From positions 33,072 through 97,071 of the forward strand of contig JASPKZ010009669.1 in assembly GCA_030220185.1 (NCBI GenBank): a DNA stretch of 64,000 nt. The letters are read 5' to 3'. The translations under genes and the position numbers were made by a program. The first letter of the stretch is position 1; every line of letters begins with the position of its first letter. The notes below the pieces were generated by a model, which was not told the origin of the DNA, did not search any database, and saw only the letters and a list, made by a program, of their open reading frames with translations. Source of the stretch: Diploptera punctata (lineage: Eukaryota; Arthropoda; Insecta; Blattodea; Blaberidae). Positions 10,064 to 54,540 of this stretch are shown one piece after another.

Positions 10064-10658
10064 AAATTAATATTAAGAAGCTAAAGCTGTTACTATGATT
10101 GAAATAAGTATATTAAAGTACACTACTAAATTATTGTAATCAAATGGTAAAGAGAAAAATTTATGCCTGAACCGGGAATCGAACCCCGAACCTTCAGCTT
10201 TCCATGCTGATGCTCTAACCATTGAGCTAATCCAGGCTTCCTTCCCATCCAAGCACAAATCCTTCCTTTACCTTACTGTCTTGGTCCCACAAATTTTTCT
10301 CTTTACCATTTGATTACAATAATTTAGTAGTGTACTTTAATATACTTATTTCAATCATAGTAACAGCTTTAGCTTCTTAATATTAATTTAATAAATAATG
10401 CTATAGCTATGTGGAGTCCCTTCATGTCTTCTTCAGGTAGAAGCCATTCATTGTGTATTTGTGAATGATGATTCATAGCATTTGAATGTGGGACCAAGAC
10501 AGTAAGGTAAAGGAAGGATTTGTGCTTGGATGGGAAGGAAGCCTGGATTAGCTCAATGGTTAGAGCATCAGCATAGAAAGCTGAAGGTTCGGGGTTCGAT
10601 TCCCGGTTCAGGCATAAATTTTTCTCTTTACCATTTGATTACAATAATTTAGTAGTGT
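10064..10658. mobile_element. SINE A head-to-head dimer
   Basis: Left unit on the - strand, right units on the + strand; tRNA-like heads have A box TAGCTCAATGGTTAGAG and B box GGTTCGGGGTTCGATTCC. Flanked by AATGATTCATT at 10053-10063 and 10659-10669. The left end carries the complete tail (starts AAATTAATATTAAGAAG when read on +); the right end stops earlier, at TTTAGTAGTGT. Confidence 0.85.
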
Positions 10659-10719
10659 AATGATTCATTTTTCACATCTTACCTCATATTTTATGTTTCT
10701 TTAAACACGGGAACTAGTT

Positions 10720-10952
10720 ATATTTAAATTAATATTGGGAAGTAAACATTATGAGGTTATATCATTAATAGTGAGTGGAGAACATATTCTTATCGACTCC
10801 CCTCATATATTTTCAAATTTCTTTGATACTGGCGGTTTCAGACAATATCATGACTGAAGAGGGACATGATATTGTCCGAAACCGTCGGTATCAAAGAAAT
10901 TTGAAAATATATGAGGTGAGTCAATAAAAATATGTTCTCCACTCACTATTAA
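10720..10952. mobile_element. PLE-e inverted dimer
   Basis: TSD CGGGAACTAGTT at 10708-10719 and 10953-10964. The left end ATTTAAATTAATATTGGGAAG is complete; the right end stops at CACTCACTATTAA. Each arm carries a hammerhead-like core; on the right arm CTGAAGA 10854-10860, GAAA 10878-10881, ACC/GGT stem III, predicted cut after A10890. Confidence 0.8.
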
Positions 10953-11037
10953 CGGGAACTAGTTTTCAAGAAAAGGATCTCTCTCATTTTCAACCAACAT
11001 TATGACTATTATATTATTTCCCATATTTAACTAAGAA

Positions 11038-12270
11038 TCCATTTTCATTCTTTAATTTTAATTTTTATTTGAGGTTTTCTTTTTCACAGATCTTCATTTG
11101 GCTTCCTGATATTCAAAATTTTTCTCAGAGAACTAATTATAGAATTCGTAATTTACATATGAGCTGTTGAGTATTAAAAGGGTCATGTCCATAATGTCAC
11201 ATTTTGAGAACACACAATTTTCTTCTAAATGCTGGTTTAAATAATATATTATACATAGTAATACAAAGAACAGATATTTATTTTAATACACACTTGGTAA
11301 CAGTATAAAAATACAATTATAAACATGAATATGCCCTTGAGCTGTCAGTAGATGTGTTCACTTGTAAATGCATCAAAAGCGGACATGATCCTTTTTAATT
11401 CTTAAGGGCTCATATCTACATCATTTAGGAAAAAAACGGGTAAGTCTGAAAAGTTATTTTTTACAGGAGAGTGAAAACTAGTTCAATGACTTACATCAAA
11501 GAGTGTATACATTGAAGGTGGGTTGCTTGGTGTGATGTCCCAAGTTGTAGATTTGTGATTGTAATAATTTGAATCACTTTAATTCTGCCACGGCACTAAT
11601 AACTCCCATCAGGGGAATGAGGAAAAGTTTCTTACACAAATAACGACACTTTATTAACAGTTAAACTAAAAGTTATTTTATTAAAACTCTCACTTCAGTT
11701 TAGATGAATCTTGTAGATTAAAAAGACTCCGGCTTAGGTTAATAATTTTCTCTTATAAAAGATTACCATTTTATGTATATAATGGATGACGAATTCTAAC
11801 GGTCAATGCTTCAAGTATTATACTTTATTTCCACTTATGGACTATTTGTATTCAAGATGGATGAATTTTATATCACTATATGATCTTCCATAACTTTAAC
11901 ACTATTCTTTCAACTAATATCAAGAAAATAAACCACCGTTTTCTCATTCCTTGAGGAGCAGTTGCCTAACATGACTGACCTTCTTCAAGTATTGTAGCCA
12001 TCTTCTTATTCAGTTATAACCTCGAGGTTCTGATTGGTCCAACTGAAAAGGAAGGAGTACTTCTAGCTGACTTCTATCCAATTCGTCCAATCCCATTCAT
12101 TTCTTTATACAAATTATCAATTTGAATATTTAAAGTATTTTACATATGTTGCATCAGTTAGAAAAACATCTAACTGTATTAACAGTTTATATTGACCAGT
12201 TTGAATTTTTTATATACTTATAAACAATTTGAATTCTCTAAATCAATTTTATGTCATTCTTAATATAAAT
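11038..12270. other. Intron 2 stretch, nothing recognised
   Basis: AT-rich, no repeat partner found in the window and no coding signal; scattered CTTACCCATTTTT-like pieces at 11430 and 12530 on opposite strands may be ends of an unknown element. Confidence 0.3.
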
Positions 12271-12282
12271 AAATATAATTAT

Positions 12283-12400
12283 TAAGTTATGTAGATAGGA
12301 AATAACACTATGAGGTTCTTTAATATTGTTTATTTTTTATCATTTCACTCACCTCATACTTCATATGAAGTATGAGGTGAGTGAAATGATAAAAAATAAA
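12283..12400. mobile_element. Minimal PLE dimer (tails only)
   Basis: TSD AAATATAATTAT at 12271-12282 and 12401-12412. The element is almost only two tails back to back: AACACTATGAGGTT, CACTCACCTCATACTTC, ATATGAAGTATGAGGTGAG. The left terminus is complete (AAGTTATGTAGATAGG), the right one short. It has no endonuclease remnant and no ribozyme core. Confidence 0.8.
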
Positions 12401-12768
12401 AAATATAATTATATTTAAATATTAAATAAACAAAACAAAAACCCTTATTATTATTATATGGGGATAAATATCTGGTTTTAACATCGAAAATTCAATGCTT
12501 AATAACACCGTCAGTATTTGCTTGACGACTTACCCATTTTTACCGAATGTGCATTGGACCAAAAGCTTTCGGAGAATGTTAATAACTCATTTTCAACCAA
12601 AAGTTGACTTACCCGGTTTTTCCTAAATGATGTAGATATAATCTCAATATTGACAAAATGAACTTCAGCTGATTGCAAGTGTCACCGATATATTTCTCAC
12701 AAATTAACTGATATTGATGGATTTAATATAATGGCAAATGTGTTTATGCTTTCAACAATAAATTTAAT

Positions 12769-13321
12769 TTGTGTTGAGTTGTTTTTGACTCACCTCATAC
12801 TTCTTAACTCTCTTGCAGACTCGAGTTTCTTCACTGCATTTGTGACATTCTCAATGCTGTATCACGTTCACAACTGATGTCCAACGCCTCCTCTCCTGCA
12901 GACTGACCTCCGCCCCATCTGATGGCTGACCGACGAACTGACCGACGAACTTACAAATCAATCCCCTCTCCTTATCACTGGGTATTTCAAAATTTATAGT
13001 TGTGTTTTTATTCTTGCATATGTAAATTTTTTCCCAAATTGTGCAAGAATAAAACATAACTATGAATTTTGAAATACCCGGTGATAAGGAGAGGGGATTG
13101 ATTTGGAAGTTCATCGGTCAGCCATCAGACGGCGTGGAGGTCAGTCTGCAGGAGAGGAGGCCGTTGGACGTCAGTTGTGAACGTGATACAGCATTGAGAA
13201 TGTCACAAATGCATTGAAGAAACTCGAGTCTGCAAGGAGTTAAGAAGTATGAGGTGAGTCAAAAACAACTCAACACAAATTAAAATAAACCTCATAGTGT
13301 TATTTCCTACCTACATAACTT
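12769..13321. mobile_element. PLE inverted dimer with endonuclease remnants
   Basis: TSD AATAAATTTAAT at 12757-12768 and 13322-13333. Both arms, divergent from a centre near 13030, code a tail with NTTMNFEIPGDKERGLIWKF-type sequence then QPSDG, the C-terminal PLE endonuclease end, then a 3' UTR and AAGTATGAGGTGAGTC. Here the right terminus is the complete one (CCTCATAGTGTTATTTCCTA). Confidence 0.8.
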
Positions 13322-13494
13322 AATAAATTTAATCTAAGAGCTAGAAACTTTACTGAACATTAGTAATAAAACAGGCAATAGAAAAAATATTTGTATTTTG
13401 GTTATTATTAGGTACTAAAGTTCGGTTGGAGATACTACCTCAAACCTGTTTGTGCATGTGTTTATCAGTTCTTGATAGTCATGCAAATAGCATT

Positions 13495-13690
13495 GTAGAT
13501 TATTTAAGTAAAATTGTATCACCTCACCTCATATTCTTCTTCTTCTTCGACCGGTTTCAGGACCATATTCGGTTCCATCCTCAGTACTTTTACAATCATC
13601 ATGAAAGTATTGAAGATGGAATTGGGTAAGGTCCCAAAACCAGTCTAAGAAGAAGAAAAATATGAGGTGAGGTGGTGCAATTTTACTTAC
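13495..13690. mobile_element. PLE inverted dimer, hammerhead-like arms
   Basis: Arms CACCTCACCTCATATTCTTC and its complement enclose GACCGGTTTCAGGACCA and CCTCAGTAC; the - strand reads CTGAGGA, a T, a stem, GAAA, ACCGGTC. The right arm has decayed cores (TTGAAGA, AAAA). Confidence 0.7.
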
Positions 13691-13739
13691 TTAATACTTA
13701 ATACATGCTTTCCACTTTACAGCAGTTCGCCCTTAATTC

Positions 13740-14109
13740 CTGATTACCAGAGATTCTTATCTTTCCATTGTCCTTCCATACCCCTCTTCATTGTGACATT
13801 ATATATTCCCTCATACCATGTTCTTCTACTTCTCCCCCTCTTCCTTCTGCCTGGTACCATCCAATCCAACACCTGTTTAAGCCACTGTTCATCCGACATC
13901 CATTGTACATGTCCATATCACTGTAAAGCTCTCTTTGTTATCCTATCGATAACAGTTTCTTGTGCATCCATTTCTTGTCTGATATATGTATTTCTAATAT
14001 GTTGTAACCTGGATATTCTCATACTTCTCAAAATATATCCATTTCTGTCGCCAAGATTCTTTTCTACATCCTTTCATTTATTGTCCAGCTTTCTGATACA
14101 TATGTAAGT
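13740..14109 (-). mobile_element. LINE 3' part, left half of an interrupted copy
   Basis: On the - strand reads a broken reverse-transcriptase tail. Together with 16378-16680 it forms one LINE split by the SINE A array. Confidence 0.6.
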
Positions 14110-14121
14110 ATACTTTCTATT

Positions 14122-16365
14122 AAATTAATATTAAGAAGCTAAAGCTGTTACTATGATTGAAATAAGTATATTAAAGTACACTACTAAATTATTGTAATCA
14201 AATGGTAAAGAGAAAAATTTATGCCTGAACCGGGAATCGAACCCCGAACCTTCAGCTTTCCGTGCTGATGCTCTAACCATTGAGCTAATCCAGGCTTCCT
14301 TCCCCTCCAAGCATAAATCCTTCCTTTACCTTACTGTCTTGGTCCCACATTCAAATGCTATGAATCATCATTCACAAGTACACAATGAATGGCTTCTACC
14401 TGAAGACATGAAGGGACTCCACATAGCTATAGCATTATTTATTAAATTAATATTAAGAAGCTAAAGCTGTTACTATGATTGAAATAAGTATATTAAAGTA
14501 CACTACTAAATTATTGTAATCAAATGGTAAAGAGAAAAATTTATGCCTGAACCGGGAATCGAACCCCGAACCTTCAGCTTTCCGTGCTGATGCTCTAACC
14601 ATTGAGCTAATCCAGGCTTCCTTCCCATCCAAGCATAAATCCTTCCTTTACCTTATTGTCTTGGTCCCACATTCAAATGCTATGAATCATCATTCACAAG
14701 TACACAATGAATGGCTTCTACCTGAAGACATGAAGGGACTCCACATAGCTATAGCATTATTTATTAAAAAATATTAAGAAGCTAAAGCTGTTACTATGAT
14801 TGAAATAAGTATATTAAAGTACACTACTAAATTATTGTAATTAAATGGTAAAGAGAAAAAATTTTATGCCTGAACCGGGAATCGAACCCCGAACCTTCAG
14901 CTTTCCGTGCTGATGCTCTAACCATTGAGCTAATCCAGGCTTCCTTCCATCCAAGCATTAAATCCTTCCTTTACCTTACTGTCTTGGTCCCACATTCAAA
15001 TGCTATGAATCATCATTCACAAGTACACAATGAATGGCTTCTACCTGAAGACATGAAGGGACTCCACATAGCTATAGCATTATTTATTAAATTAATATTA
15101 AGAAGCTAAAGCTGTTACTATGATTGAAATAAGTATATTAAAGTACACTACTAAATTATTGTAATCAAATGGTAAAGAGAAAAATTTTATGCCTGAACCG
15201 GGAATCGAACCCCGAACCTTCAGCTTTCCGTGCTGAAAAATTTGTGGGACCAAGACAGTAAGGTAAAGGAAGGATTTATGCTTGGATGGGAAGGAAGCCT
15301 GGATTAGCTCAATGGTTAGAGCATCAGCACGGAAAGCTGAAGGTTCGGGGTTCGATTCCCGGTTCAGGCATAAATTTTTCTCTTTACCATTTGATTACAA
15401 TAATTTAGTAGTGTACTTTAATATACTTATTTCAATCATAGTAACAGCTTTAGCTTCTTAATATTAATTTAATAAATAATGCTATAGCTATGTGGAGTCC
15501 CTTCATGTCTTCAGGTAGAAGCCATTCATTGTGTACTTGTGAATGATGATTCATAGCATTTGAATGTGGGACCAAGACAGTAAGGTAAAGGAAGGATTTA
15601 TGCTTGGATGGGAAGGAAGCCTGGATTAGCTCAATGGTTAGAGCATCAGCACGGAAAGCTGAAGGTTCGGGGTTCGATTCCCGGTTCAGGCATAAATTTT
15701 TCTCTTTACCATTTGATTACAATAATTTAGTAGTGTACTTTAATATACTTATTTCAATCATAGTAACAGCTTTAGCTTCTTAATATTAATTTAATAAATA
15801 ATGCTATAGCTATGTGGAGTCCCTTCATGTCTTCAGGTAGAAGCCATTCATTGTGTACTTGTGAATGATGATTCATAGCATTTGAATGTGGGACCAAGAC
15901 AGTAAGGTAAAGGAAGGATTTATGCTTGGATGGGAAGGAAGCCTGGATTAGCTCAATGGTTAGAGCATCAGCACGGAAAGCTGAAGGTTCGGGGTTCGGT
16001 TCCCGGTTCAGGCATAAATTTTTCTCTTTACCATTTGATTACAATAATTTAGTAGTGTACTTTAATATACTTATTTCAATCATAGTAACAGCTTTAGCTT
16101 CTTAATATTAATTTAATAAATAATGCTATAGCTATGTGGAGTCCCTTCATGTCTTCAGGTAGAAGCCATTCATTGTGTACTTGTGAATGATGATTCATAG
16201 CATTTGAATGTGGGACCAAGACAGTAAGGTAAAGGAAGGATTTATGCTTGGATGGGAAGGAAGCCTGGATTAGCTCAATGGTTAGAGCATCAGCACGGAA
16301 AGCTGAAGGTTCGGGGTTCGATTCCCGGTTCAGGCATAAATTTTTCTCTTTACCATTTGATTACA
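14122..16365. mobile_element. SINE A inverted tandem array (8 tRNA-like units)
   Basis: Four units on the - strand (tRNA-like heads near 14222-14300, 14542-14620, 14866-14945, 15189-15237; the last is cut) are followed by four on the + strand (near 15295-15370, 15617-15692, 15940-16014, 16258-16336); the unit is about 320 bases. The switch of strand is at about 15237. The whole block is flanked by ATACTTTCTATT at 14110-14121 and 16366-16377, so it behaves as a single insertion. Heads fold like a tRNA with GCCTGGA/TTCAGGC acceptor ends, but base 33 is C in most units and the unit lies in a repeat, so I do not call tRNA genes. Confidence 0.9.
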
Positions 16366-16377
16366 ATACTTTCTATT

Positions 16378-16680
16378 GTCTGTATAATCTCTTTTTTTTT
16401 TTTCTGGTCAAATTTCTATTCCATAAAAGACCATTCAGGGATCTAATCGCCTTCCTTGCACAATTTACTCTGTTAATAATATGTTTTTCACAAGTACCAG
16501 ATTTATCTATTATAGAACCAAGATATTCAAATTCTTCAACACATTTAATTACCATATTATTTATTTGTAGGTCTTCTGAATTTCCTCCGATTACCATATA
16601 TTCTGTTTTCATATAATTTATCTTCAGTCCCCCTACCTCAAATGCATCTACCAACTTTCTAATCATATATTCTATATATT
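16378..16680 (-). mobile_element. LINE reverse transcriptase fragment (right half)
   Basis: On the - strand: LVDAFEVGGLKINYMKTEYM, then EEFEYLGSIIDKSGTCEKHI and a basic end. K[IL]NxxKTE.M with a following YLGS is the thumb-side region of non-LTR reverse transcriptases. Interrupted by the SINE A array. Confidence 0.8.
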
Positions 16681-16737
16681 TTTTACTTCATAGTGTTAAT
16701 TCCTAAAGAGTTAAGCATTGTATATTGTTTGTTACAG

Positions 16738-16935
16738 ACTAGAAGTAAACAATTCACAGGTAAAGGCAGTTTATCTTGCTGCTTGTCACCTTAAGATGGA
16801 CCGTGTGGTAAGAGAATGTATCGTCATCTCATCAAGAACCTAAATGTGGACAACTGCATTGAAACTCGTTCCCTCCCAGGCATAAACAAGAACAAGGCAT
16901 TTATGGATCAAGTGGATGCTTATATTGCCAAAGAA
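16738..16935 (+). CDS. IVNS1ABP: IVNS1ABP homolog exon 3 (end of BTB, start of BACK), one-base gap
   Basis: The acceptor gttacag at 16737 completes the Arg codon (R-LEVNNSQVKAVYLAACHL). After VVREC the frame moves: only two bases (16820-16821) sit between TGT and CGT, where a full codon is expected. Reading resumes as RHLIKNLNVDNC and runs to AAA GAA|GTGAGT in phase 0. As given, the uncorrected frame stops within a few codons. A lost base in the assembly or a real frameshift are both possible. Confidence 0.8.
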
Positions 16936-17240
16936 GTGAGTTTATTTAAATACGTAGCCAGTAAAATCAACTAAAAAAATAATATATATCAACATATAAA
17001 ATGTATCTTCTCAGCTTCACATACCTTTGTAATTTAGCATTTCAAAGAGACGGATGTTCGACTAACCACAATATAACCTGGATTGTACGCATTCCTTTTG
17101 TTTCATGCATTGTCACCCTAATTCATAAATCTCAGAATTACACTTTTGGTGATTTTTATGTTTTTTCAACTCTCTAGAGGAAATTGTATCATTTAATCAG
17201 AGTGAAATACAATATACTCTGAAAACATTAAGAAATTATA
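16936..17240. other. Start of intron 3, nothing recognised
   Basis: AT-rich, no repeats with partners in this window. Confidence 0.3.
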
Positions 17241-17244
17241 TATT

Positions 17245-17425
17245 TTAAAGGACAAATTACTATGAGGTTTAATTTTAAATTTAAATTAAAATTCTTTATA
17301 TCTCACCTCATATCCTGTCTTCTAATTATTATTAATTATCTAATGTAATTATAATTAATATTTTTATAATTAATAATTATAATTAATTAGAAGACAGGAT
17401 ATGAGGTAAGATATAAAGAATTTTT
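17245..17425. mobile_element. PLE inverted dimer (17.3 kb)
   Basis: Tails GACAAATTACTATGAGGTTT on the left, CTCACCTCATATCCTGTC and its complement GACAGGATATGAGGTAAG around a short AT-rich centre. Its right end (ATATAAAGAAT) was used as target by a SINE B. Confidence 0.7.
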
Positions 17426-17803
17426 TTATTATTGATTTAACATTTCTCACTGAAAGATAAATGTTATTTGAAGAGAAATTTTCGCCTAGACCAAGACTCG
17501 AACCCGGGACCTTTGGTGAGAAATGTTAAATCAATAATAAAAACATCATTAGAAGCCTTACTAGCTTTATAAAGTAATGTTAAATTTCCAATAAATGTCT
17601 TCTTAACTAAGAAGCTGCCATTTGCAAAGATAGAAACAATGGTTTCAAAAGCATTTGGCGAGAGGGAATTACAACGTATATAAGAGGAAAATTTGCATCT
17701 AGATTGTAACTCACCTCGGTAGCTCAGTTGGTAGAGCATTTGGCCCGGCAAGCCAAAGGTCCCAGGTTCAAGTCTCGGTCTAGGCAAAAATTTTTCTCTT
17801 CAA
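17422..17803. mobile_element. SINE B head-to-head dimer, left unit cut
   Basis: TSD ATATAAAGAAT at 17411-17421 and 17804-17814. Right unit on + with A box TAGCTCAGTTGGTAGAGCA and B box GGTTCAAGTC; left unit on - stops inside its head. The left outer end has the full tail (ATTGATTTAACATTTCTCAC); the right end stops at CTCTTCAAAT. Confidence 0.8.
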
Positions 17804-17814
17804 ATATAAAGAAT

Positions 17815-18060
17815 ATAAAAATAAAACTTACAGTTTTATTTGATATTCATATTTATTAAGATATAATTTAGTTACAGCTGTTCTGGTACACACTGTACCT
17901 TCTTCAGACATGTTAACAAATTAATGTATTAATTAATACAATTCATTAATTTAACATGTCTGAAGAAGGTACAGTGTACCGAAACAGCTGTAACTAAATT
18001 ATATCTTAATAAATATGAAAATCAAATAAAACTGTAAGTTTTATTTTTATTTAATTAAAA
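17815..18060. mobile_element. PLE inverted dimer (17.9 kb) with hammerhead-like core
   Basis: Long arms around ATTAATACAATTCATTAAT. The right arm carries CTGAAGA 17960-17966, an extra A, stem II GGTAC/GTACC, GAAA 17981-17984, self-complementary ACAGCTGT as stem III and predicted cut after A17992. The left-arm core is mutated (AGAA for GAAA). Confidence 0.75.
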
Positions 18061-18274
18061 AAGTAATGGATTTTCATCAAGTAAACACCAGCTCAATTGA
18101 TTACTTGAAGAATTTTAATTTAAATCTTATGATATCTATCTATATAAAAATGAATATATGTAATGTTCATCCTTTATAGACTTCTAAACTGCTGAACTGA
18201 TCTTTATGAGAATTTGTACATACAGGTTTTTAGATATGGCAAATGTTTAGCCACTATCTATTATGGTAATAAAA

Positions 18275-18405
18275 GATTCTGGGCTATGTGGCCGTGGTCT
18301 ATAACTGGCGTTTCTTCCAGTTTCGATGGAAGAAACGCCAGTTATAGACCACGGCCACATAGCCCGGAATCTTTTATTAATGATTACCGGCCGTGAAAGC
18401 CTGCA
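18275..18405. mobile_element. PLE-type palindrome (cggccgtg end)
   Basis: GGCTATGTGGCCGTGGTCTA and its complement flank a short loop; the right side continues into GGCCGTGAAAGCCTGC, which also ends the 23.4 kb PLE. No endonuclease remnant. Confidence 0.65.
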
Positions 18406-18699
18406 TTCCACCACTATCTATTATGTTTTAAAACCATCAGGTGTAGGAGTTCACCTGAAACAAAAATTTAAAAATTGCTCTAGCAGTTGAAATTTTCAAT
18501 GTTTCAATGAAACATGCTATTAAAATAAACAGAGGTAGGTATTTTCCAAAAAATCAGCGAAATCCGATTGTTAGAAGTGGGGTTCACCTGAAATAAAAAA
18601 TTAACTATCGCCATGTTTTGTTATTTGCAATGTATACCATACAATTTAATTAACCTCTAATTTTCTTCTTATTTATTCAACTAAAAATAAATACACATA

Positions 18700-19289
18700 A
18701 ATTATATTTGAAGAGAAAAATTTTTGCCTAGACCGAGACTCGAACCCGGGACCTTTGGCTTGCCAGGCCAAATGCTCTACCGACTGAGCTACCGAGGCGA
18801 GTTATGATCTAGACGCAAATTTTTCTCTTATATGCGTTGTAATTCCCTCTCGCCAAATGCTTTTGAAATCATTGCTTCTATCTTTGCAAATGGTGGCTTC
18901 TTAGTTAAGAAGACATTTATTGGGAATTTAACATTACTTTATAAAGGTAGTAAGGCTTCTAATTATTTATAATAAAAACATCATTAGAAGTCTTACTAGC
19001 TTTATAAAGTAATGTTAAATTCCCAATAAATGTCTTCTTAACTAAGAAGCCACCATTTGCAAAGATAGAAGCAATGGTTTCAAAAGCATTTGGCGAGAGG
19101 GAATTACAACGCATATAAGAGAAAAATTTGTGTCTAGATCGTAACTCGCCTCGGTAGCTCAGTTGGTAGAGCATTTGGCCCGGCAAGCCAAAGGTCCCAG
19201 GTTCGAGTCTCGGTCTAGGAAAAAATTTTTCTCTTCAAATATAATTTATCTTTCAGTGAGAAATGTTAAATCAATAATAAAAACATCAT
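18700..19289. mobile_element. SINE B head-to-head dimer
   Basis: TSD AAATACACATA at 18689-18699 and 19290-19300. Left unit on -, right unit on +. Here the right outer end is the complete one (GTTAAATCAATAATAAAAAC) and the left is short, the mirror image of the 17.4 kb copy. Confidence 0.85.
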
Positions 19290-19854
19290 AAATACACATA
19301 TCTAATTTATTTAGGTGCAGCAGCTCATGCTGGGTATTACCTAGTACAATATAAACATATTCCTTTAAAATTGGGGCATCAAAATATTTTTGTTTGAAAA
19401 ATGGAGACACGAGGTTTGTCAGAATGATAGAATGATAATGTCAGTTCTTTGTAAATGATGGGGTAAGAGTCAAATGTTCTATTATTATCAATCTGAAGTA
19501 GACTACTATTTATTTTGCAATTGTTGTGTTTGGTTCATCAAATAAAATAAGATGTGTAAATGAATGATGACATTAGACATACACAGCCTACTGTTATACG
19601 TCCAAAAATCATATATTATGATATGTATAAAGATGATGCAGCTCAAATAAGATTAATAGGGCACTTAGTTATTGCTTGTGTGTGTCAACTTGTTATGAAA
19701 TGGTTAAAAGAAACAGACAAAACAAGCTGCGGTCAGAATTAAGCTCTGTGGCATCTACATCTACAATGGTGTAACAGCCCAACATTGGACCTTAGCCTCT
19801 CCTTTGTTAGGAATTATTAGACCAAATTAATTTAGTTACACTTCAATGTTTTAT

Positions 19855-20405
19855 TACTAATTTCATACATCTCAATGATGGATAAATCATATTTGAAGAG
19901 AAAAATTATATGCTCAGACTAGGACTTGAACCCAGGACCCTTGGTTCTCTAGACCAAGTGCTCTACCACCTGAGCAAGTACCGATCTAAACGCAAATTTT
20001 TCTCTATATACGTTGTAATTCCCATCCTCCAAATGCTATGAGGCCTTTGCTTTTATCTTTACAAATGGCAGCTCCTATATTAAGAAGACATGTTTGGGAA
20101 TTATACATTACATTATAAATGCCAGTACATCATTGAGATGTATGAAATTAGTAATAAAAACATTGAAAAAAGCCGTACTGGCATTTATAATGTATAATTC
20201 CCAAATATGTCTTCTTAATATAGGAGCCGCCATTTGCAAAGGCTTCATAGCATTTGGTAGGCAGGAATTACAACGTATATAGAGAAAAATTTGCATTTAC
20301 ATCGGTATTTGCTCAGGTAGCTCAGATGGTAGAGCATTTGGTCTAGACAACCAAGGGTCCCTTCAAGTTCCGGTCTGAGCATATAATTTTTCTCTTCAAA
20401 TATGA
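19855..20405. mobile_element. SINE C head-to-head dimer
   Basis: TSD TTAGTTACACTT at 19843-19854 and 20406-20417. Heads carry the CTCAGGTAGCTCAGATGG A box and a GTCCCTTCAAGTTCC type B box. The right unit head starts near 20305. Inserted inside a SINE F copy. Confidence 0.85.
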
Positions 20406-20479
20406 TTAGTTACACTTATTTCTCTACATATATCATGAATGTGGTCAACATACCCACTCAATGAGACATCTAGTAGGCA

Positions 20480-20720
20480 ATTAGGTTTTGCTAGGATGAT
20501 GAAGGTCAGTAAAATTTGCTTAGAGGTCTCTTTATTCAGCCTTAAGGTTCTTTTACGGGCCTGAAAAATCTTCAGACTTGGGACCCATGGCCTAAAGTCC
20601 TTCCTAAAGGACTTCTCCTTGGATTTTTGCATCCTAAAAAATCCCAAGACCAGGTTTGGCCAGGTTTGAACCCATGACCCTCAGGACCAGAGGCAACGAG
20701 CATAACCACTAGACCACTGC
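20480..20720 (-). mobile_element. SINE F (tRNA-derived)
   Basis: On the - strand the head (near 20650-20720) has AGTGGTTATGCTCGTTGCC and GGGTTCAAACC boxes; the body has GATTTTTCAGGCCCG. Same family as 6870, 22150-22800 and 46620. Confidence 0.75.
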
Positions 20721-21440
20721 AGCTGACAGCTCTATGGCATTACAGGTCTAAAATGCCTCACATGCCATGTATCGATCACAAAATTGGACAATCATTCTGG
20801 CAGTATAGGGGTGACAGTTCTCAGCCACTATTTATCATAGCTCAATTCCTCGGGATGCTGAGTGTAGCCCAATCCATTCATTAGTCTAAATTCCTCAGAA
20901 AATGTATTCCCTCAGCAACTTAAATGTGTACATATCTATTAGCTCTGTGCCATGACATATCTTAGACAATTTCCTATGATGCAGGGCACAACAAATCTTC
21001 ATTACATGTATCCAGCCATAGCTGATGACACGAATCCATTGTATACTTATGCTATAAGTTGCAATGGGGCTGCATTTAAACATGCAGCTTATGTGGGCAT
21101 TCAAGGTGAGTGTCCACGAGATTAAAAGAAAGAGATATAGGAAAGACAGAAATGAACCCTTCGGCCTCGAATACTCTTAATACCATCAGGGTCGAAGAAA
21201 ACAAGAGGTCAGGCAAGGGAGACTGGATAGGAAAGTAAAAGAGGGATCTGGTATTAGAAAAGGAAGAAATACTAGATCAGTTAAAGATAAAAATTAGGAG
21301 CAAAACACAACTAAATGGAAGCAATGTTTTGGTCAGCTCGGGCACCTTGTTGTTGCCATCCACATATCTGCTACATGGGGACCCCTGAGGGTGGACACAA
21401 GAAAAAACATTGAAATAAAAAGTTATGTTTTGTTGTTGCA
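20721..21440. other. End of intron 3; short SINE fragment at 21320-21400
   Basis: 21320-21400 (GGTCAGCTCGGGCACCTTG, CTACATGGGGACCCCTGAGG) looks like a piece of another dispersed repeat. The remainder shows no gene. Confidence 0.35.
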
Positions 21441-21441
21441 G

Positions 21442-21624
21442 TTTGAAAATGTGTGTAAATCAAAGATCCTGCTGTCTCTCCCCTGTATACGTATTGAGGT
21501 GCTAAACCAAACCCGGCAGGAGATGTCATTGGTGGTAGGAGAGTCTGTGTGTCAGCTGGTGTTAGACTGGGTACGGCGACAGTCAGAAGACGATGCCATA
21601 AACATGGATCAGCTCATGGAAAAG
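21442..21624 (+). CDS. IVNS1ABP: IVNS1ABP homolog exon 4 (BACK)
   Basis: The acceptor is gttgcag at 21441 and the donor AAG|GTAAGA; both boundaries are phase 0. The peptide (ILLSLPCIRIEVL, then VCQLVLDWVRR) has the leucine pattern and the VxxWV motif typical of BACK helices. The frame is intact. Confidence 0.85.
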
Positions 21625-21719
21625 GTAAGAGCAACATAAACTGAACTCTATATTTCACAGCAGACAATTTTAACTGAGAATGATTTAATTAAATGTTCAT
21701 ATTCTCTATCTCCACAGTG

Positions 21720-21849
21720 GCATAACAGTCAATGTTGGGCCTTTTGTTAGGAATTACTACATCAAATTAATTTGGTTACGCTTATTTGCCTACAGATGTC
21801 ATGAATAGTATGTGGTCAATATATCAACCCAATGAGACATCTAGTAGGC
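21720..21849 (-). mobile_element. SINE F fragment
   Basis: GGCCTTTTGTTAGGAATTAC through AATTTGGTTACGCTTATTTG, matching the tail of the 20.4 kb copy. It is split by the following PLE insertion and resumes near 22152. Confidence 0.55.
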
Positions 21850-21862
21850 AACTGAGATATTA

Positions 21863-22138
21863 TATTAAATTAATGTTGGGAAGTAAACATTATGAGGTAT
21901 AATCATTCAAATTCATCGGAGAACATTTTGTTTAAACAACTCACCTCATAGGATTCATGCTTCCATGATACTGCGGTTTCAAACACAGTCGTGTTCATCT
22001 TCAGCCATAACTCCGACTGACGAAATTCTTTGGAGTTATGGCTGAAGATGAACACAACTGTGTTTGAAACCGCGGTATCATGGAAGCATGAATCCTATGA
22101 GGTGAGTTGTTTAAACAAAATGTTCTCCGATGAATTTT
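21863..22138. mobile_element. PLE-e related inverted dimer
   Basis: TSD AACTGAGATATTA at 21850-21862 and 22139-22151. Left end complete (TATTAAATTAATGTTGGGAAG), right end short (TTCTCCGATGAATTTT). Right-arm hammerhead-like core CTGAAGA 22042-22048, stem AACACA/TGTGTT, GAAA 22066-22069, stem III ACCGCGGT. Confidence 0.85.
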
Positions 22139-22149
22139 AACTGAGATAT

Positions 22150-22800
22150 TACTGGGGTGATGCGATCAGTAAATTTTGCTTAGAGGCCTCTTTATTCAGG
22201 ATTAAGAATCTTTTCTTCTTTTTATATCTTGTAAGCCCATATTTCCCTTAACAGAGATTTAGGCGCTCTCCCCCTACAGGGAAGAATTTGAACCATACTA
22301 ATTTAGTTACACTTGTTTCGTATAGATGTCATTTGAGTGGTCCGTGGTCAGCGTTCTGCCTCATACTGACATCTAGGAAACCAAGGTAGTACTAGGACGG
22401 GAAAATTCAGTAAATTTTGCTTAGAGGCCTTTCATTTAGGCTTAAGGATCTTTTACGAGCCTGAAAATCTTCAGACTCGGGACCCACGGCTTAAAGTCCC
22501 TCCCGGAGGACTTGCTCCTTGGATTTTTCCATCCTAAAAAAATCCATCGACCCTGGCCAGGTTAGAACCCGCGACCCTTGGGACCAGAGGCAAGGAGCAT
22601 AAAAACTAGTCCACCGTGCCCCGATTAAGAATCTTTTACAAGCCTAAAAATCTTCAGACTCGGTACTCAGGGCTTAAAGTTTCTCCTGGAGGACTTGCTC
22701 CTTGGATTTTTTTTGTCCTAAAAAATCCATTGATCCTGGCTGGCTTTGAACCCATAACCCTCAAGATCAGAGAATAGGAACATAACACTAATCCTATACA
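22150..22800 (-). mobile_element. SINE F copies, at least two
   Basis: Three body regions (22150-22220, 22405-22610, 22625-22800) each with CTTAGAGGCC or GATCTTTTACGAGCC and tRNA-like ends GTTAGAACCCGCGACCC, TTTGAACCCATAACCC (- strand B boxes). The copies overlap head to tail. Confidence 0.65.
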
Positions 22801-22829
22801 GCCGACACATTTTTTTTAAGGTAGTTATA

Positions 22830-23045
22830 TTTCCAAAATGGGGGATAAAAGAGGTGCATGGAAGCTTCTTATAGGAAAACTATAAGGAAAACGCCCAGTT
22901 GGTAGACCAAGAATGAGGTGGGAGAATAACAATATCCATGATTTGAGGGAAGTAGATTATACAGGTGATGATTTGGAAAACATTAGCTCAGGATAGGGGT
23001 GTATGGAGAGTTTGTCCATGCAGCCATGAACCTACAGGTTTGATA
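22830..23045 (+). mobile_element. LINE tail (family tail a)
   Basis: Reads GDKRGAWKLLIGK, then RPRMRWENNNIHD and DYTGDD with frame breaks, ending at CATGAACCTACAGGTT. Confidence 0.7.
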
Positions 23046-23280
23046 GAGCAGTGAATTAGTTATATTTCCAAAAAAGAAGCCTAAGATTATTACACTTAGT
23101 TGTGGATTTAATTTTTTTATTATATTTATATAAAGAACATGCTAACTTTTGAGCGTTTGCTCTTTATTTTATGAAAAATGCTAGTTCTCAGTTTTATTTT
23201 ATTTATTATGTTTACAAGCTTAATTCTTTAGAAACCTAGATATATATTTGATATAACAACATAATTTTGTGTTCTGACAG

Positions 23281-23412
23281 ACACATTTGCTGTACCTAGC
23301 GATGGACAACTCGCTACAGGATTGTACAGAACTACCTACAGGCGATGTCAGTGACACAGAGATTGTGCAGGATTATAAAAAATTATCTAAACGTAATCAA
23401 GCCAACAACAAG
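23281..23412 (+). CDS. IVNS1ABP: IVNS1ABP homolog exon 5 (end of BACK, linker)
   Basis: The acceptor is tctgacag at 23280; the exon reads THLLYLAMDNSLQDC and then a polar linker. The donor is AAC AAG|GTGAGA. A PLE insertion ten bases inside the intron has copied this donor: the same 13 bases recur at 23660-23672. Confidence 0.8.
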
Positions 23413-23422
23413 GTGAGAATTG

Positions 23423-23659
23423 TATTGACTTAGGCTTTCACGGCCGGAGTTGCTATGATGATCTTGAAGAAGATTTCCGGGCTGTAGGCCGTGGTCTTGA
23501 AGCTTGAAGTTCCCCAACGTTTCGCCAGAGATTGCGTCTGGCATCCTCAAAGTTTGTCTTACCCTTGAGGATGCTAGACGCAGTCTCTGGCAAAACGTCG
23601 GGGAATTTCAAGCTTCGAGACCACGGCCTACAGCCCGGAAATCTTCTTCAAGGTCATTA
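23423..23659. mobile_element. PLE palindrome beside exon 5 (donor duplication)
   Basis: Starts CTTTCACGGCCGGAG and ends with its complement-like half; the - strand of the left arm has TTGAGGA, T, stem II GCCAGA/TCTGGC, GAAACG. Flanked by AAGGTGAGAATTG at 23410-23422 and 23660-23672, which is the exon 5 donor, so the insertion copied a functional splice site. Confidence 0.85.
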
Positions 23660-23669
23660 AAGGTGAGAA

Positions 23670-23900
23670 TTGCATGATATGTATAAGTTCTTTTTCTTCT
23701 TCTTCCTCTTTTCCCTTCTGTCTATTGTGTTGGGACTACCTCAATCCACTTCATCTACTCTATTCTTTCTTTTGTCATTCTATTTAATTCTCCATCTTCT
23801 TTCCCAATTCTTCTTGCTATATCATTGGTACTATCCATGTATTTTTTCTTTGACATTCCTCTATTCCCTTCTGTTATTGCTTCCATTATTTGATTCCCGA
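23670..23900 (-). mobile_element. Probable LINE tail fragment
   Basis: On the - strand: NDIARRIGKEDGELNRM after a basic run, of the reverse-transcriptase tail type. Weak. Confidence 0.4.
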
Positions 23901-24190
23901 TCGGGATAGGCTCCTTGGTGAGTTTTTCTCAAGGTTTTTCCTCACCTGTAAGACAAATGTCAGGAAGCTTAGAGCCCAATGGTCCCTGAAAGTCATCTGG
24001 CCTTCATCATCATCATCACCCTTCGTCGGTGTGAAAAGCAACAGGAAGCTACCACATCTATAATCCCCTAGTAAAGCTGCAAAGCATAGCATGAAAATGC
24101 TATGATTGCAGTGAAAGACCTGCCCTCGTGCAGAATTACTATGGATATATCTATTAACAAGGGAACTGTCAACCATTGCATGCCAGAACC
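23900..24190 (+). mobile_element. SINE G, 5'-truncated
   Basis: GATTCCCGATCGGGATAGG then TTTTTCCTCACCTGTAAGAC, AAGTCATCTGGCCTTC and (CAT)n, tail CAGAATTACTATGGATATAT. Same family as 8266. Confidence 0.75.
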
Positions 24191-24985: not shown

Positions 24986-25013
24986 TGAAAGTCTATAATT
25001 TTATATCTATCTG

Positions 25014-25508
25014 TTAAATTAATATTAAGAAGCTAAAGCTGTTACTATGATTGAAATAAGTATATTAAAGTACACAACTAAATTATTGTAATCAAATGAT
25101 GCTCATGGGCATCAGCATGGAAAGATGAAGGTTCGGGGTTCGATTCCCGGTTCAGGCATAAATTTTTCTCTTTACCATTTGATTACAATAATTTAGTTGT
25201 GTACTTTAATATGCTTATTTCAATCATAGTAACAGCTTTAGCTTCTTAATATTAATTTAATAAATAATGCTATAGCTATGTGGAGTCCCTTCATGTCTTC
25301 TTCAGGTAGAAGCCATTCATTGTGTATTTGTGAATGATGATTCATAGCATTTGAATGTGGGACCAAGACAGTAAGGTAAAGGAAGGATTTATGCTTGGAT
25401 GGGAAGGAAGCCTGGATTAGCTCAATGGTTAAGAGCATCAGCACAGAAAGCTGAAGGTTCGGGGTTCGATTTCTGGTTCAGGCATAAATTTTTCTCTTTA
25501 CCATTTGA
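25014..25508. mobile_element. SINE A head-to-head dimer (25 kb)
   Basis: TSD TTTATATCTATCTG at 25000-25013 and 25509-25522. Left (-) unit with complete tail TTAAATTAATATTAAGAAG is truncated at its head near 25095; right (+) units end at TTTACCATTTGA. Confidence 0.85.
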
Positions 25509-25522
25509 TTTATATCTATCTG

Positions 25523-33487: not shown

Positions 33488-33910
33488 TAATGAGTCATTT
33501 TTTACATCTTATCTCATATTTCATGATTTCTTTAAACACGGGAACTAGTTATATTTAAATTAATATTGGGAAGTAAACATTATGAGGTTATATCATTAAT
33601 AGTGAGTGGAGAATATATTTTTAACGACTCACCTCATATGATTTCAAATTTCTTTGATACCAGTGGTTTCAGACATATTAGACTGAAGAGGGACAAGATA
33701 TTGTCTGAAACTGCCGGTATCAAGAAATTTGAAATCATATTTACGGGAACTAGTTTCAAGAGAAACATCTCTCTCATATTATGACTACCAGTTGAAAATG
33801 AGAGAGATGTTTCTCTTGAAAACTAGTTCCCGTGTTTAAAGAAATCATGAAATATGAGATAAGGACGTAAAAAAATTACGAATTAAGAACCACGTAATGT
33901 TATTTTCCAT
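33488..33910. mobile_element. PLE-f with nested PLE-e (second nest)
   Basis: The same insertion point as at 10.7 kb: PLE-e starts right after CACGGGAACTAGTT (33551) and ends near 33740 before ACGGGAACTAGTT. Here the right PLE-e arm is shortened (ends AATCATATTT). The right end of PLE-f is CATATTTAACTATGAA near 33905. Confidence 0.75.
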
Positions 33911-34875: not shown

Positions 34876-34948
34876 CAATATGTAGGGTATCTCAAATGAA
34901 AAAGGACTAGAAACATTGAAAAGACAAAGTTTAAACAGCATTGAATAT

Positions 34949-35758
34949 ATTTAAATTAATATTGGGAAGTAAACATTATGAGGTTATATCATTAATAGTG
35001 AGTGGAGAACATATTTTTATCGACTCACCTCATATGATTTCAAATTTCTTTGATACCGACAGTTTCAGACAATATCATGTCCCTCTTCAGCCATGGCTTC
35101 CACTGATGAAACTCTGTGATTGTTGATTTCTCTAATGACATCACTTCTTGTGCTGCCATCTTTCGTTGGGATTATAAACTTTGTAATTAAAATTTTATCT
35201 ACCGGAATATCGAAATTCATAGATCGATCTTTATTCTTCTGAATGAATATCATTTCCCAAATTGTCAATTCCAACGGTTTATCCAATTGTTTCAAAAGTT
35301 TTGTCTCTTTTTCAATTTTATGATGTTCTAGCAAACTATGTGCAACAATTGCTGATTTTTCAAATAGAAATATTAAAAATTGTGAAATTGAAAAATCAGT
35401 AATTGCTGCACATAGTTTGCTAGAACATCATAAAATTGAAAAAGAGACAAAACTTTTGAAACAATTGGATAAACTGTTGGAATTGACAATTTGGGAAATG
35501 ATATTCATTCAGAAGAATAAATATCGATCTATGAATTTCGATATTCTGGTGGATAAAAATTAATTACAAAGTTTATAATCCCAACGAAAGATGGCAGCAC
35601 AAGAGGTGATGTCATTAGAGAAATCAACAATCACAGAATTTCATCAGTGGAAGCCATGACTGAAGAGGGACATGATATTGTCTGAAACCGTTGGTATCAA
35701 AGAAATTTGAAATCATATGAGGTGAGTTGATAAAAATATGTTCTCCACTCACTATTAA
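34949..35758. mobile_element. PLE-e long inverted dimer with endonuclease domain remnants
   Basis: TSD AGCATTGAATAT at 34937-34948 and 35759-35770. Divergent arms, centre near 35355. Each codes about 75 residues: AAHSLLEHHKIEKETKLL, then LELTIWEMIFIQKNK and SMNFDI. The H.LLEHH, E.I.I and MNF pattern is the end of the GIY-YIG endonuclease of PLEs. Left terminus complete (ATTTAAATTAATATTGGG), right terminus stops at CACTCACTATTAA. Hammerhead-like cores follow both frames (right arm from CTGAAGA near 35660). Confidence 0.85.
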
Positions 35759-35834
35759 AGCATTGAATATTTCTAATAATTTGCTTTGTTCCCTTATTTA
35801 AATTTAATATTAACTATATATTCATATATTAATA

Positions 35835-43094: not shown

Positions 43095-43835
43095 AAGGAA
43101 GTGACACTATGAGGTTTATTTTAAATAATATGAGTGGAAAATACATGACTCACCTCATTTTTGTAGTTTCTTGGAGACCCAGGGTTTCGACATGTGTCAT
43201 TGCCAATTCTTTCTATGTTAGAAAGAATTGACAATGACACACAGTGCGTGAAAACCATGTGTAGTTTCTTGAAGACCCAGGGTTTCTACACATGTCATTG
43301 TCAATTCTTTCTAAGTTAGAAAGAATTGACAATGACACGTAGTGTGTCAAAACCATGTGTAGTTTCTTGAAGACCCAGGGTTTTGACACATGTCATTGTC
43401 AATTCTTTGTAAGTTAGAAAGAATTGACACATGTCATTGTCAATTCTTTCTAAGTTAGAAAGAATTGACAATGACACATAGTGTGTCAAAACCATGTGTA
43501 GTTTCTTGAAGAAGACCCAGGGTTTTGACACATGTCATTGTCAATTCTTTGTAAGTTAGAAAGAATTGACAATGACACATAGTGTGTCAAACCATGTGTA
43601 GTTTCTTGAAGACCCAGGGTTTTGACACATGTCATTGTTAATTCTTTGTAAGTTAGAAAAAATTGACAATGATACATAGTGTGTTGAAACCATGTGTAGT
43701 TTCTTGAAGACCCAGGGTTTCGACACATGTCATTGTCAATTCTTTGTAAGTTAGAAAGAATTGACAATGACACATAGTGTGTCAAAACCATGGGTCTTCA
43801 ATAAACTACAGATATGAGGTGAGTCATGTATTATT
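43095..43835. mobile_element. PLE with tandem hairpin array
   Basis: Outer tails GACACTATGAGGTTTATT, GACTCACCTCATTTTTG (left) and GATATGAGGTGAGTCATG (right). Inside, a unit of about 115 bases (AAGAATTGACAATGACAC, GTGTGTCAAAACCATGTG, TAGTTTCTTGAAGACCCAGG, then the reverse half) repeats about five to six times. Each unit contains two opposed hammerhead-like halves: TTGACAA T GACAC..GTGTC AAAACC on + and GAAACCCTGGGTC-type on -. Confidence 0.85.
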
Positions 43836-51830: not shown

Positions 51831-51834
51831 AGGC

Positions 51835-52570: not shown

Positions 52571-52869
52571 TACGATCTTAAGGTACCTTGTCAGGTAGCT
52601 TTACAATTATTACCGCGTGAATAGATTTCTGAGTAAGAAAAATGTGTTTGAATAAAACTTTATCAGCAGAGAACGCCTTTTACTGTCTAATGCGTTCAAA
52701 CATTCGACCCTTAGTCTGTTACAGTATTCTATTTCATTTAGGTGTATCAAAATACTGGATGTGTCATCTACCAATCCTATGTAAAGAAATTTCCTTATTA
52801 GATCATAAATATTCAATAAGCCCAAACACTTTTGTAGATGATAACAACTTGTAATTATTGTTGTTTCAG

Positions 52870-53043
52870 GTCGTTACCAGGCAGGTGTGTGTTCAATGGA
52901 CGGGCTGGTGTTTGCTGCAGGAGGCTGTGATGCTTGGAATTGCCTGAGCTCAGTGGAGGTTTATGATCCACAGACTAACATGTGGACCTTTGCTAAAGGA
53001 ATGATTACAGCCAGGAGAGGTTGTGGACTTGCTTTCTTCAATG
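52870..53043 (+). CDS. IVNS1ABP: IVNS1ABP homolog exon 10 (Kelch 4)
   Basis: The acceptor is tgtttcag at 52869. It reads GRYQAGVCSMDGLVFAAGG and then the CDAWNCLSSVEVYDP blade, close to the AESWNCLNTVERYNP blade of the vertebrate protein, which is the most diagnostic segment for this family. The donor is AAT G|GTGAGC. The frame is intact. Confidence 0.88.
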
Positions 53044-53059
53044 GTGAGCGACTGTAGCA

Positions 53060-53880
53060 TAGATTTTTTTTTTAAATTCTAGAAAAAAATTATAATTAAA
53101 TAAAAAAAGAGAAGATTTGTTTGCCTAGACCGAGATTGAACCTGGACCTTTGGCTTTTTGGGCCAAATGCTTTACCAACTGAGCTACTGAGGTGAGTTGC
53201 GATCTAGATGCAATTTTTTCTCTTATACGTTGTAATTCCCTCGTGCCAAATGCTTTGAAACCGTTGCTTCTATCTTTGCAAATGGCAGCCTCTTAGTTAA
53301 GAAGACATTAATTGGGAATTTAACACTACTATATAAAGCCTGTATGGCTTCTATTGATGTTTTTATTATTAATTTAACACTTCTCACTGAAGGATACATT
53401 ATATTTGAAAAGAAAATTTTTCGCCTAGACTGAGACTTGAACCCAGGATCTTTGGTTTCTGGGCCAAATGCTCTACCAACTGAGCTACTGAGGCAAGTTG
53501 TGATCTAGATGCAAATTTTTCTCTTTATACGTTGTAATTCCCTCGTGCCAAATGCTCTGAAACCGTTTTTCTCTTCAAATATAATTTATCCTTCAGTGAG
53601 AAGTTTTAAATTAATAATAAAAACATCAATAGAAACCCTACTGGCTTTATAAAGTAGTGTTAAATTCCCAATTAATGTCTTCTTAACTAAGAGGCTGCCA
53701 TAAGCAAAGATAGAAGCAACGGTTTCAAAGCATTTGGCACGAGGGAATTACAACGTATAAAGAGAAAAAATTGCATCTAGATCGCAACTCGCCTCGGTAG
53801 CTCAATTGGTAGAGCATTTGGCCCGGAAAGCCAAAGGTCCCGGGTTCGAGTCTCGGTCTGGGCAGAAATTTTTCTCTTCA
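53060..53880. mobile_element. SINE B cluster in intron 10
   Basis: Heads on - near 53115-53195 and 53415-53500 and on + near 53780-53870 (CGCCTCGGTAGCTCAATTGG, GGGTTCGAGTC). Strand switch near 53570, a mixture of tandem and inverted copies. Right edge CAAATATAATTACC, beside a PLE-like CCTCATAGTG at 53891. Confidence 0.8.
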
Positions 53881-53931
53881 AATATAATTACCTCATAGTG
53901 TGACTTGATTATATTGCTTTGTTATTTGTAG

Positions 53932-54101
53932 GTAAATTGTATTCAGTGGGTGGTTCAGATGGATCTCATTCATTGTGTTCTACTGAGATTTATGATCCAG
54001 TAGAGAAGACGTGGACACCCGGCCCTAACATGACAACAGCTCGAGCCAATGTAGGTGTTGCAGTGATTGGCAGTCGATGTACGCAGTTGGAGGATTCTCA
54101 G
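53932..54101 (+). CDS. IVNS1ABP: IVNS1ABP homolog exon 11 (Kelch 5), one-base gap
   Basis: The acceptor is atttgtag at 53931. It reads GKLYSVGGSDGSHSL and the blade end KTWTPGPNM. After GSR one base is missing at about 54078 (Leu-Tyr-Ala-Val-Gly-Gly expected); the frame then returns to GGFSG and ends TCA G|GTAAAG. Confidence 0.8.
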
Positions 54102-54277
54102 GTAAAGTTGTCATCAGTAAGCAACGGCACAATTTTCAAGTCAGATATTAAGGCTTACTGCTTAAAAATTATTTCTTTAATAGAAGCTGGTCATTGGCTA
54201 TCGATAGCACCATCTAGCTGCCTTTGCACGATTTGAAAATTGTATACAAGGAAAGAAATGTTAACTTTTGTATTGTT

Positions 54278-54540
54278 TAAATTAATATTGAGAAGCTAAA
54301 GCTATTACTATGATAAAAATAAGTAAATTAATGAACACAAATTATTGTAAATCAATGGTAAAGAGAGAAATTTTTGCCTGAACTGGGAATCGAACCCCGA
54401 ACATTTAGCTTTCCGTGCTAATGCTCTGACCACTGGGAATGAAGCCTGGATTAGCTCAGTGGTCAGAGCATTAGCACGGAAAGCTAAAGGTTTGGGGTTC
54501 GATTCCCGGTTCAGGCAAAAATTTTTCTCTTTACCATTGA
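54278..54540. mobile_element. SINE A head-to-head dimer, compact
   Basis: TSD TTTTGTATTGTT at 54266-54277 and 54541-54552. Left end TAAATTAATATTGAGAAGC differs from the PLE-e end by one base over 17; heads (CTCAGTGGTCAGAGC, GGGGTTCGATTCCC) almost touch (centre near 54440). Confidence 0.88.

Follow-up and report, generated by a model that had tools for sequence, protein, structure and literature searches.

A tRNA-type SINE of Diploptera punctata with the 3′ tip and insertion anatomy of Penelope-like elements

Short interspersed nuclear elements (SINEs) normally use the enzymes of long interspersed nuclear elements (LINEs), and the members of a SINE-LINE pair share a 3′ tail. Here we describe SINE A, an element of Diploptera punctata (Blattodea; Blaberidae) with a transfer RNA (tRNA)-like core, whose 3′ tip is that of two families of Penelope-like elements (PLEs), PLE-e and PLE-f. 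The stretch analysed, called the window below, is 64 kb of contig JASPKZ010009669.1 (positions 33,072 to 97,071), from a host genome of 3.12 Gb in 10,165 contigs. It is crowded with short palindromic repeats, of which four are SINE A and several others are PLEs. Judged from sequence, SINE A is probably a tRNA-SINE mobilised by the PLE-e/f protein, which has reverse transcriptase (RT) and GIY-YIG domains. The original prediction had proposed a PLE as the driver, and the proposal is supported by the shared tip, by a census of 100 genomic places carrying it, and by the head-to-head anatomy of the insertions; from these we infer mobilisation in trans. No account of a PLE-driven tRNA-SINE was found in the open literature, as judged from titles and abstract openings.

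The SINE A unit is 322-326 nt long and its tRNA-like core is of the serine type according to ARAGORN. The tRNA-like segment is present in the units of all four window insertions (ARAGORN and Rfam RF00005). Units are arranged head to tail inside arms, and the arms head to head. On the left side of each of the four insertions the minus arm starts (TT)AAATTAATATT[AA or GA]GAAGC beside the left target-site duplication (TSD); on the right side of each, the plus arm ends 56-75 nt before the full end, at the right TSD. In window coordinates, with no single strand assigned to insertions here or in the later lists, they are:

10064..10657: SINE A insertion, head-to-head, with a minus arm (full 3′ end left) and a plus arm (one complete and one partial unit, shortened right); TSD TAATGATTCATT (10052-10063, 10658-10669).
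14122..16365: SINE A array of eight matched segments (four minus, then four plus; unit 322 nt), full left and shortened right; TSD ATACTTTCTATT (14110-14121, 16366-16377).
25014..25508: SINE A insertion, head-to-head, full left and shortened right; TSD TTTATATCTATCTG.
54278..54540: SINE A insertion of subfamily A2 (GAGAAG tip), head-to-head, full left and shortened right; TSD TTTTGTATTGTT.

Head-to-head dimers with one full and one short end had been described at the outset; the anatomy holds, and only the copy at 14-16 kb departs from a plain dimer, being an array of eight segments. The PLE-e and PLE-f copies of the window are:

10720..10951: PLE-e insertion sitting inside a different repeat that has PLE-type ends; head-to-head, full left and shortened by ~43 nt right; TSD ACGGGAACTAGTT.
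33551..33742: PLE-e insertion sharing that nested site and its TSD, ACGGGAACTAGTT; its right arm is deleted and ends deeper (-83).
34949..35758: PLE-e insertion, head-to-head, full left and shortened by 43 nt right; TSD AGCATTGAATAT; the arms contain a piece of a PLE-like reading frame.
21863..22138: PLE-f insertion with tip TTAAATTAATGTTGGGAAG, head-to-head, short end at -45; TSD AACTGAGATATTA.

The PLE-e copy at 34949-35758 has the tip ATTTAAATTAATATTGGGAAG and a layout matching that of the window SINE A copies. Since the copies at 10720 and 33551 have the same TSD inside the same host repeat, they are probably one event duplicated; the three PLE-e insertions reported earlier are thus three copies, two of which probably go back to one insertion. 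The nested composite, with PLE-e and its TSD, is present twice (10707-10964 and 33538-33755), and has probably itself been duplicated or copied. The short TSDs reported earlier are confirmed, at 12-14 bp in the window and about 11-16 bp overall for both SINE A and PLE-e/f.

In the window the four SINE A and three PLE-e starts differ by 1-2 bases and lie at the same kind of junction, which bears out the claim of a shared terminus. The insertion boundaries of SINE A and PLE-e/f fall within ~4 nt of each other, PLE-e being 2-4 bases longer (AT or ATAT). As both ends are fixed by TSDs, there is little room to slide the tip alignment. The SINE A copy at 54.3 kb differs from PLE-e by one base over TTTAAATTAATATTGRGAAG, as noted at the outset, and the other three window copies show two differences over the 19-nt tip. 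Subfamily A3 (GGGAAG) equals PLE-e letter for letter over 19 bases, TTAAATTAATATTGGGAAG, after which it reads CTAAA and PLE-e reads TAAA; the mismatches to PLE-e/f over the tip are thus 0/19 for A3 and one or two for A2 and A1. Divergence of the two consensuses outside the core AATTAATATT had been held out as an objection. The match is wider than the core, reaching GGGAAG in A3, and the agreement covers the 19-nt tip and, after one extra base, TAAA; further on the two diverge.

How readily might such a match arise in AT-rich sequence? The window contains 27 copies of TAAATTAATATT with at most one mismatch, where 4.2 are expected; 0/100 shuffles reached that count. For comparison across PLEs we used a catalogue of nine family ends, written down by hand from 102 PLE 3′ motif matches in 311 kb, some of these matches being chance or internal. 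The nine families have a common 3′ layout, consisting of a family-specific AT-rich tip, GGAA and a TATGAGG motif (window ~10.7-60.7 kb and fetched loci). Variation between families is greatest in the tip, and PLE-e and PLE-f are alike also in the region adjoining the tip. The SINE A tip agrees with families e/f at 16-18 of 20 positions and with the other seven at 10-14 of 20. End-anchored identity to the best of the nine is 17/20 for A1, 18/20 for A2 and 19/20 for A3. Dinucleotide shuffles, likewise scored on the best of nine, reached the observed match in 3/5000 (A1) and 1/5000 (A2) cases, and mononucleotide shuffles in 9/20000 (A1), 1/20000 (A2) and 0/20000 (A3). Chance, which the original prediction had kept as a real alternative, is therefore an unlikely origin of the match; we rejected it on the strength of the shuffles and of a census covering the first 100 listed places.

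For that census, tip patterns were counted over the genome as lower bounds, each checked against its reversed pattern. The neutral tip TTAAATTAATRTTRRGAAG has at least 26,201 matches, the SINE form TAAATTAATATTRAGAAGC at least 10,598, the GGG form at least 8,645 and the 34-nt PLE-e/f end at least 9,441, with 0 matches to the reversed control in all four cases. The first 100 of the 26,201 neutral-tip places listed were classified by hand as 50 PLE-e/f, 49 SINE A, one left open and 0 LINE. They lie on contigs C1-C6, in genome order and not as a random sample, and it is from these 100 that the genome-wide proportions of SINE A and PLE are judged; the neutral pattern was built from SINE A and PLE-e/f, and elements with a looser tip would be missed. 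The place left open (locus L073) is a short SINE A-like piece. Counted among the 49 are a deletion-bearing copy (L010) and, in L021, a 19-nt fragment next to a SINE A unit; the 50 include a PLE-e split by an insertion (L050). Similarly, the first 24 GGG-tip places listed (20 fetched as a set, the other four in L010, L025 and L079) comprise 18 PLE-e, one of them insertion-broken, and six SINE A.

The census bears directly on the conventional possibility that a LINE moves SINE A, the likeness to PLE-e/f being chance in AT-rich sequence and the inverted arms a product of twin priming. Fragments of LINEs are frequent in the window and the fetched loci (24 matches to one family, including the query), and the tip is indeed AT-rich. 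We consider this highly improbable all the same. No LINE with the shared 3′ end appears among the first 100 of the 26,201 tip places listed. The one window LINE family that was sampled, represented by those 24 matches, has a different end, and many of its copies run into GTTA or AAGT repeats. Chance reached the tip match in 0-9 of 20000 shuffles. LINE-1 twin priming, moreover, divides one RNA between the arms. The arms of SINE A overlap in unit coordinates (in L011, for example, they span unit 93-246 and 81-322) and some hold whole units, which is why twin priming was rejected. A LINE driver was likewise rejected on the census and on the end of the sampled family; a LINE with a better match, once envisaged as what might overturn the pairing with PLE-e, was absent from the 100 places.

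The anatomy of the insertions is stronger evidence than the tip. One full and one short end, head to head, is the published signature of PLE insertion, the short end marking the "tail". The Anolis PLE protein cuts and extends both target strands; it begins reverse transcription at two neighbouring positions within the RNA, and the interval between these is the genomic tail of 30-40 bp (PMC11167929). Rotifer Penelope elements are described as inverted copies, mostly head-to-head; their 31-bp tail is optional, and the TSDs given there measure 8-10 bp (PMC3846280).

SINE A anatomy was scored by script in the window and in 40 loci chosen by the SINE A tip, after removal of tRNA-only matches and of arrays with fewer than 100 aligned bases. 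TSDs were called by script with at most one mismatch; with the same settings a TSD was called in 4/150 and 3/150 random intervals. The PLE-e/f sample consisted of 49 copies in the SINE A-study loci and in later, tip-chosen loci. "Short" refers to bins that we set, unit 238-272 for SINE A and -60 to -25 for PLE-e/f. Of 54 SINE A arrays, 20 have a TSD, and 15 of these are full + short; the other five are 5′-truncated + full (three), otherwise truncated + full (one) and short + short (one). Two of the 20 TSDs are doubtful, the one in L010 and that in L021, which consists of the tip itself. PLE-e/f behave in the same way: 17 of the 49 copies have a TSD and 15 of the 17 are full + short, the remaining two being the 33.5 kb copy with its deeper end and a copy in L063 with a doubtful 9-bp TSD. 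Every one of the 15 + 15 full + short insertions is head-to-head, a minus arm followed by a plus arm. Choosing loci by the tip guarantees one full end; the finding concerns the opposite end, which is short and never full, full + full being found in 0/54 SINE A arrays and 0/49 PLE-e/f copies. Within the bins, the 33 short ends of SINE A lie at unit 246-270 (median 255) and the 30 of PLE-e/f at -55 to -25 (median -41.5). SINE A copies obey the tail rule of PLEs with a longer tail. The segments inside one SINE A insertion are also more alike (median identity 98.8%, 48 inverted pairs) than segments of different insertions (90.8%, 5,510 pairs), a contrast that is inflated by subfamilies and in which the eight-segment array supplies many pairs.

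Domains of the required kind are encoded by PLE-f copies. PLE-f in L025 has RT (RVT_1, PF00078) and GIY-YIG (PF01541) matches above cut-off, in two overlapping frames that continue into the 3′ end of PLE-f; in L041 the same pair of domains, PF00078 and PF01541, again passes the cut-off in two overlapping frames. Both copies are frame-broken. The PLE-e reading-frame fragment of the window has no Pfam match, and an intact PLE-e frame was not met, none having been searched for.

We envisage that the PLE protein would cut both target strands a dozen bases apart and would take up SINE A RNA through the shared 3′ tip. On one strand reverse transcription would start at the full site and on the other at the upstream site, both internal to the RNA, and the two complementary DNAs would then join head to head. 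Arms of several units may reflect template jumping, or an RNA of SINE A that is multimeric or circular. As to the template, the tRNA part occupies about unit 148-221 and is followed by a T5 run at unit 226-230 (e.g., window 16019-16023), upstream of both inferred RT start sites. A T run is expected to stop transcription by RNA polymerase III (pol III). With such a run before both end sites, the template RNA probably differs from a simple pol III transcript. A hairpin over the unit junction, placing the start site in its loop, has z-scores of -0.76 (A1) and -2.39 (A2), a weak result. By eye, several insertions have inner (5′) arm junctions at the same positions, unit ~93-94 and 204-207, as though these were RNA ends or pause sites of the enzyme.

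Tandem units of ~322-326 nt also invite comparison with retrozymes: SINE A might be a circular-RNA element of that type, its driver unspecified, with rolling-circle copying as the source of its multimers and inverted arms. PMC7761336 treats metazoan retrozymes as a kind of SINE that has circular RNA and an unknown driver, and ascribes minimal hammerheads to PLEs. In the window a core pattern of the hammerhead type occurs in PLEs:

35660..35692, plus strand: hammerhead-type core (CTGAAGA...GAAAC, then GGTA) in PLE-e, core pattern only; further in PLE-e at 10854 (plus), 33683 (plus) and 35058 (minus), and in PLE-f at 22042 (plus) and 21969 (minus).

The core pattern has 21 matches in the window, some of them surely chance, and Rfam (E up to 3) gave no hammerhead in 9800-26000 or 33000-36500, the two stretches searched. 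The pattern scan, made on the four window SINE A insertions, found no core inside these copies, although the nearby PLEs have it, and SINE A has a tRNA-like core; a retrozyme-like origin is improbable.

Several observations weigh against mobilisation of SINE A by PLE-e/f. The shared stretch is short (19 nt, and TAAA after a one-base gap) and AT-rich, and beyond the tip SINE A and PLE-e/f are unrelated, at ~50% identity. The tail of A2 outside the tip resembles PLE tails (5 of 1000 shuffles as good) but that of A1 does not significantly (223 of 1000); with B, C and D, three other SINE families, at 469, 815 and 778 of 1000, tail likeness beyond the tip was not used as general evidence. One LINE copy, in L047, directly adjoins a SINE A tip; because SINE A has its own TSD there, we read it as a SINE A inserted beside a LINE. 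The bins for short ends are our own, and 12 SINE A and five PLE-e/f 3′-side ends fall outside them. The two end sites also differ in spacing, lying ~67 nt apart in SINE A and ~42 nt apart in PLE-e/f. Finally, SINEs B and C show PLE-like anatomy without a recognised shared PLE tip. Their insertions in the window are:

18697..19286: SINE B insertion, head-to-head, short end (-37) left and full right; TSD ATAAATACACATA.
17420..17809: SINE B insertion, head-to-head, full left and short (-42) right; TSD ATATAAAGAAT.
58048..58214: SINE C insertion, head-to-head, full left and short (-44) right; TSD GTAAAACTATACT.

In a sample of TSD-bearing copies only (20 rows, representing 14 distinct copies), 8/14 SINE B and C copies are full + short and head-to-head, the short end lying at -37 to -47. 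The two families have a common tip, AATAATAAAAACAT (window; L015, L034, L037, L043). The tips of B, C and D match none of the nine catalogued PLE families, 4700, 4720 and 4988 of 5000 shuffles, respectively, being as good, and a genome search for the B/C tip beside the PLE motif found no such PLE (17 matches vs. 3 in the control). As the B and C tips match no catalogued PLE, sequence pairing is shown for SINE A only. The suggestion that all SINE families pair with PLE termini is accordingly not supported by sequence, for B, C and D on the catalogue and for B/C also genome-wide.

These copies are what speaks for a broader alternative, in which PLE machinery in general moves SINE A independently of the tip, using any tRNA-SINE RNA of suitable structure, and the tip match is secondary or neutral: the short ends of B and C lie near the PLE value and no PLE tip matches theirs. 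Yet out of nine PLE families the tip of SINE A is shared with e/f specifically, in thousands of copies, and the insertion boundary is at nearly the same place. We hold tip-independent use to be rather unlikely for SINE A. The wider proposal, that PLEs drive the whole tRNA-SINE cohort here (A, B, C and perhaps D), the SINEs bringing their own pair of internal RT start sites and SINE A in addition sharing the tip of one PLE family, has in our estimate about an even chance.

The direction in which the tip passed is a separate matter. By analogy with LINE-SINE pairs, the SINE probably took its tip from a PLE-e-like element, a view that no age order supports. Alternatively, PLE-e/f may have acquired the tip from SINE A, or both from a third element, the partnership arising later. 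Sharing by itself gives no direction, both families number in the thousands, and median copy identities yield no order: they are 96.9% for A1, 91.7% for A2, 96.9% for A3 (three pairs only), 92.2% for PLE-e and 80.0% for PLE-f (eight pairs). The same comparison of A1, A2 and A3, better than an earlier one, did not show A3 to be the oldest SINE A subfamily, and that idea was given up. Set against a reversed direction are the tip-adjoining region that PLE-e and PLE-f have in common and the fit of their ends to the layout of the other catalogued PLEs, and we find it rather unlikely.

By anatomy SINE A is a SINE; it works like a passenger of PLEs, and the LINE partner that belongs to the usual definition was not found among the 100 tip places classified. 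With SINE-LINE pairs it has in common a tRNA-like core, the lack of a reading frame, high copy number, TSDs and a 3′ end shared with an autonomous partner. It differs from them in that the partner is a PLE, the copies are head-to-head with a full and a short end, the tRNA lies inside a tandem unit, and the full end is not poly(A) or a microsatellite. Like PLEs, with their RT and GIY-YIG domains, SINE A has head-to-head inverted arms, tail asymmetry, TSDs, tandem arrangement and the terminal tip, but it lacks RT and endonuclease, its window copies show no hammerhead core, and outside the tip it is unrelated to PLE-e/f. It is short, multimeric and non-coding as metazoan retrozymes are; it differs by its tRNA core, by the missing hammerhead core (window copies) and by a shared end that names a driver, which according to PMC7761336 is lacking for metazoan retrozymes. 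TRIMp3 Helenus and Ajax, long terminal repeat (LTR) elements with tRNA or 5S parts, are similarly small-RNA-derived elements with a non-LINE driver. Their driver, however, is an LTR retrotransposon, and they have LTRs, a primer binding site and a polypurine tract (PMC10886601).

If SINE A is indeed moved by PLE-e/f, PLEs would be a new kind of SINE driver beside LINEs. Thousands of SINE insertions would then be natural read-outs of the poorly known PLE mechanism, with its two start sites and two strands, and they would suggest a concrete way in which retrozymes and other small multimeric elements might be moved.

A few minor observations remain. A search of a viral sequence collection with the SINE A tail gave 0 matches. 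Rfam micro-RNA matches in 9800-26000 and 33000-36500 were all under gathering scores; they were taken as palindromes and dismissed. At window 43162-43832, palindromic units of ~98 bp stand in tandem inside a repeat with PLE-type ends. Between the repeats, at ~21.4-21.6, 23.3-23.4, 27.2, 29.1-29.3, 31.6-31.9, 49.7-49.8 and 53.9-54.1 kb, are coding-looking pieces that, by reading only, resemble exons of a kelch-repeat gene. Outside the window, the minus strand of L047 (1-2428) has reading frames in which motifs of the type MWFGPRLGRR recur many times; these frames presumably resemble a neuropeptide precursor of the pyrokinin type.

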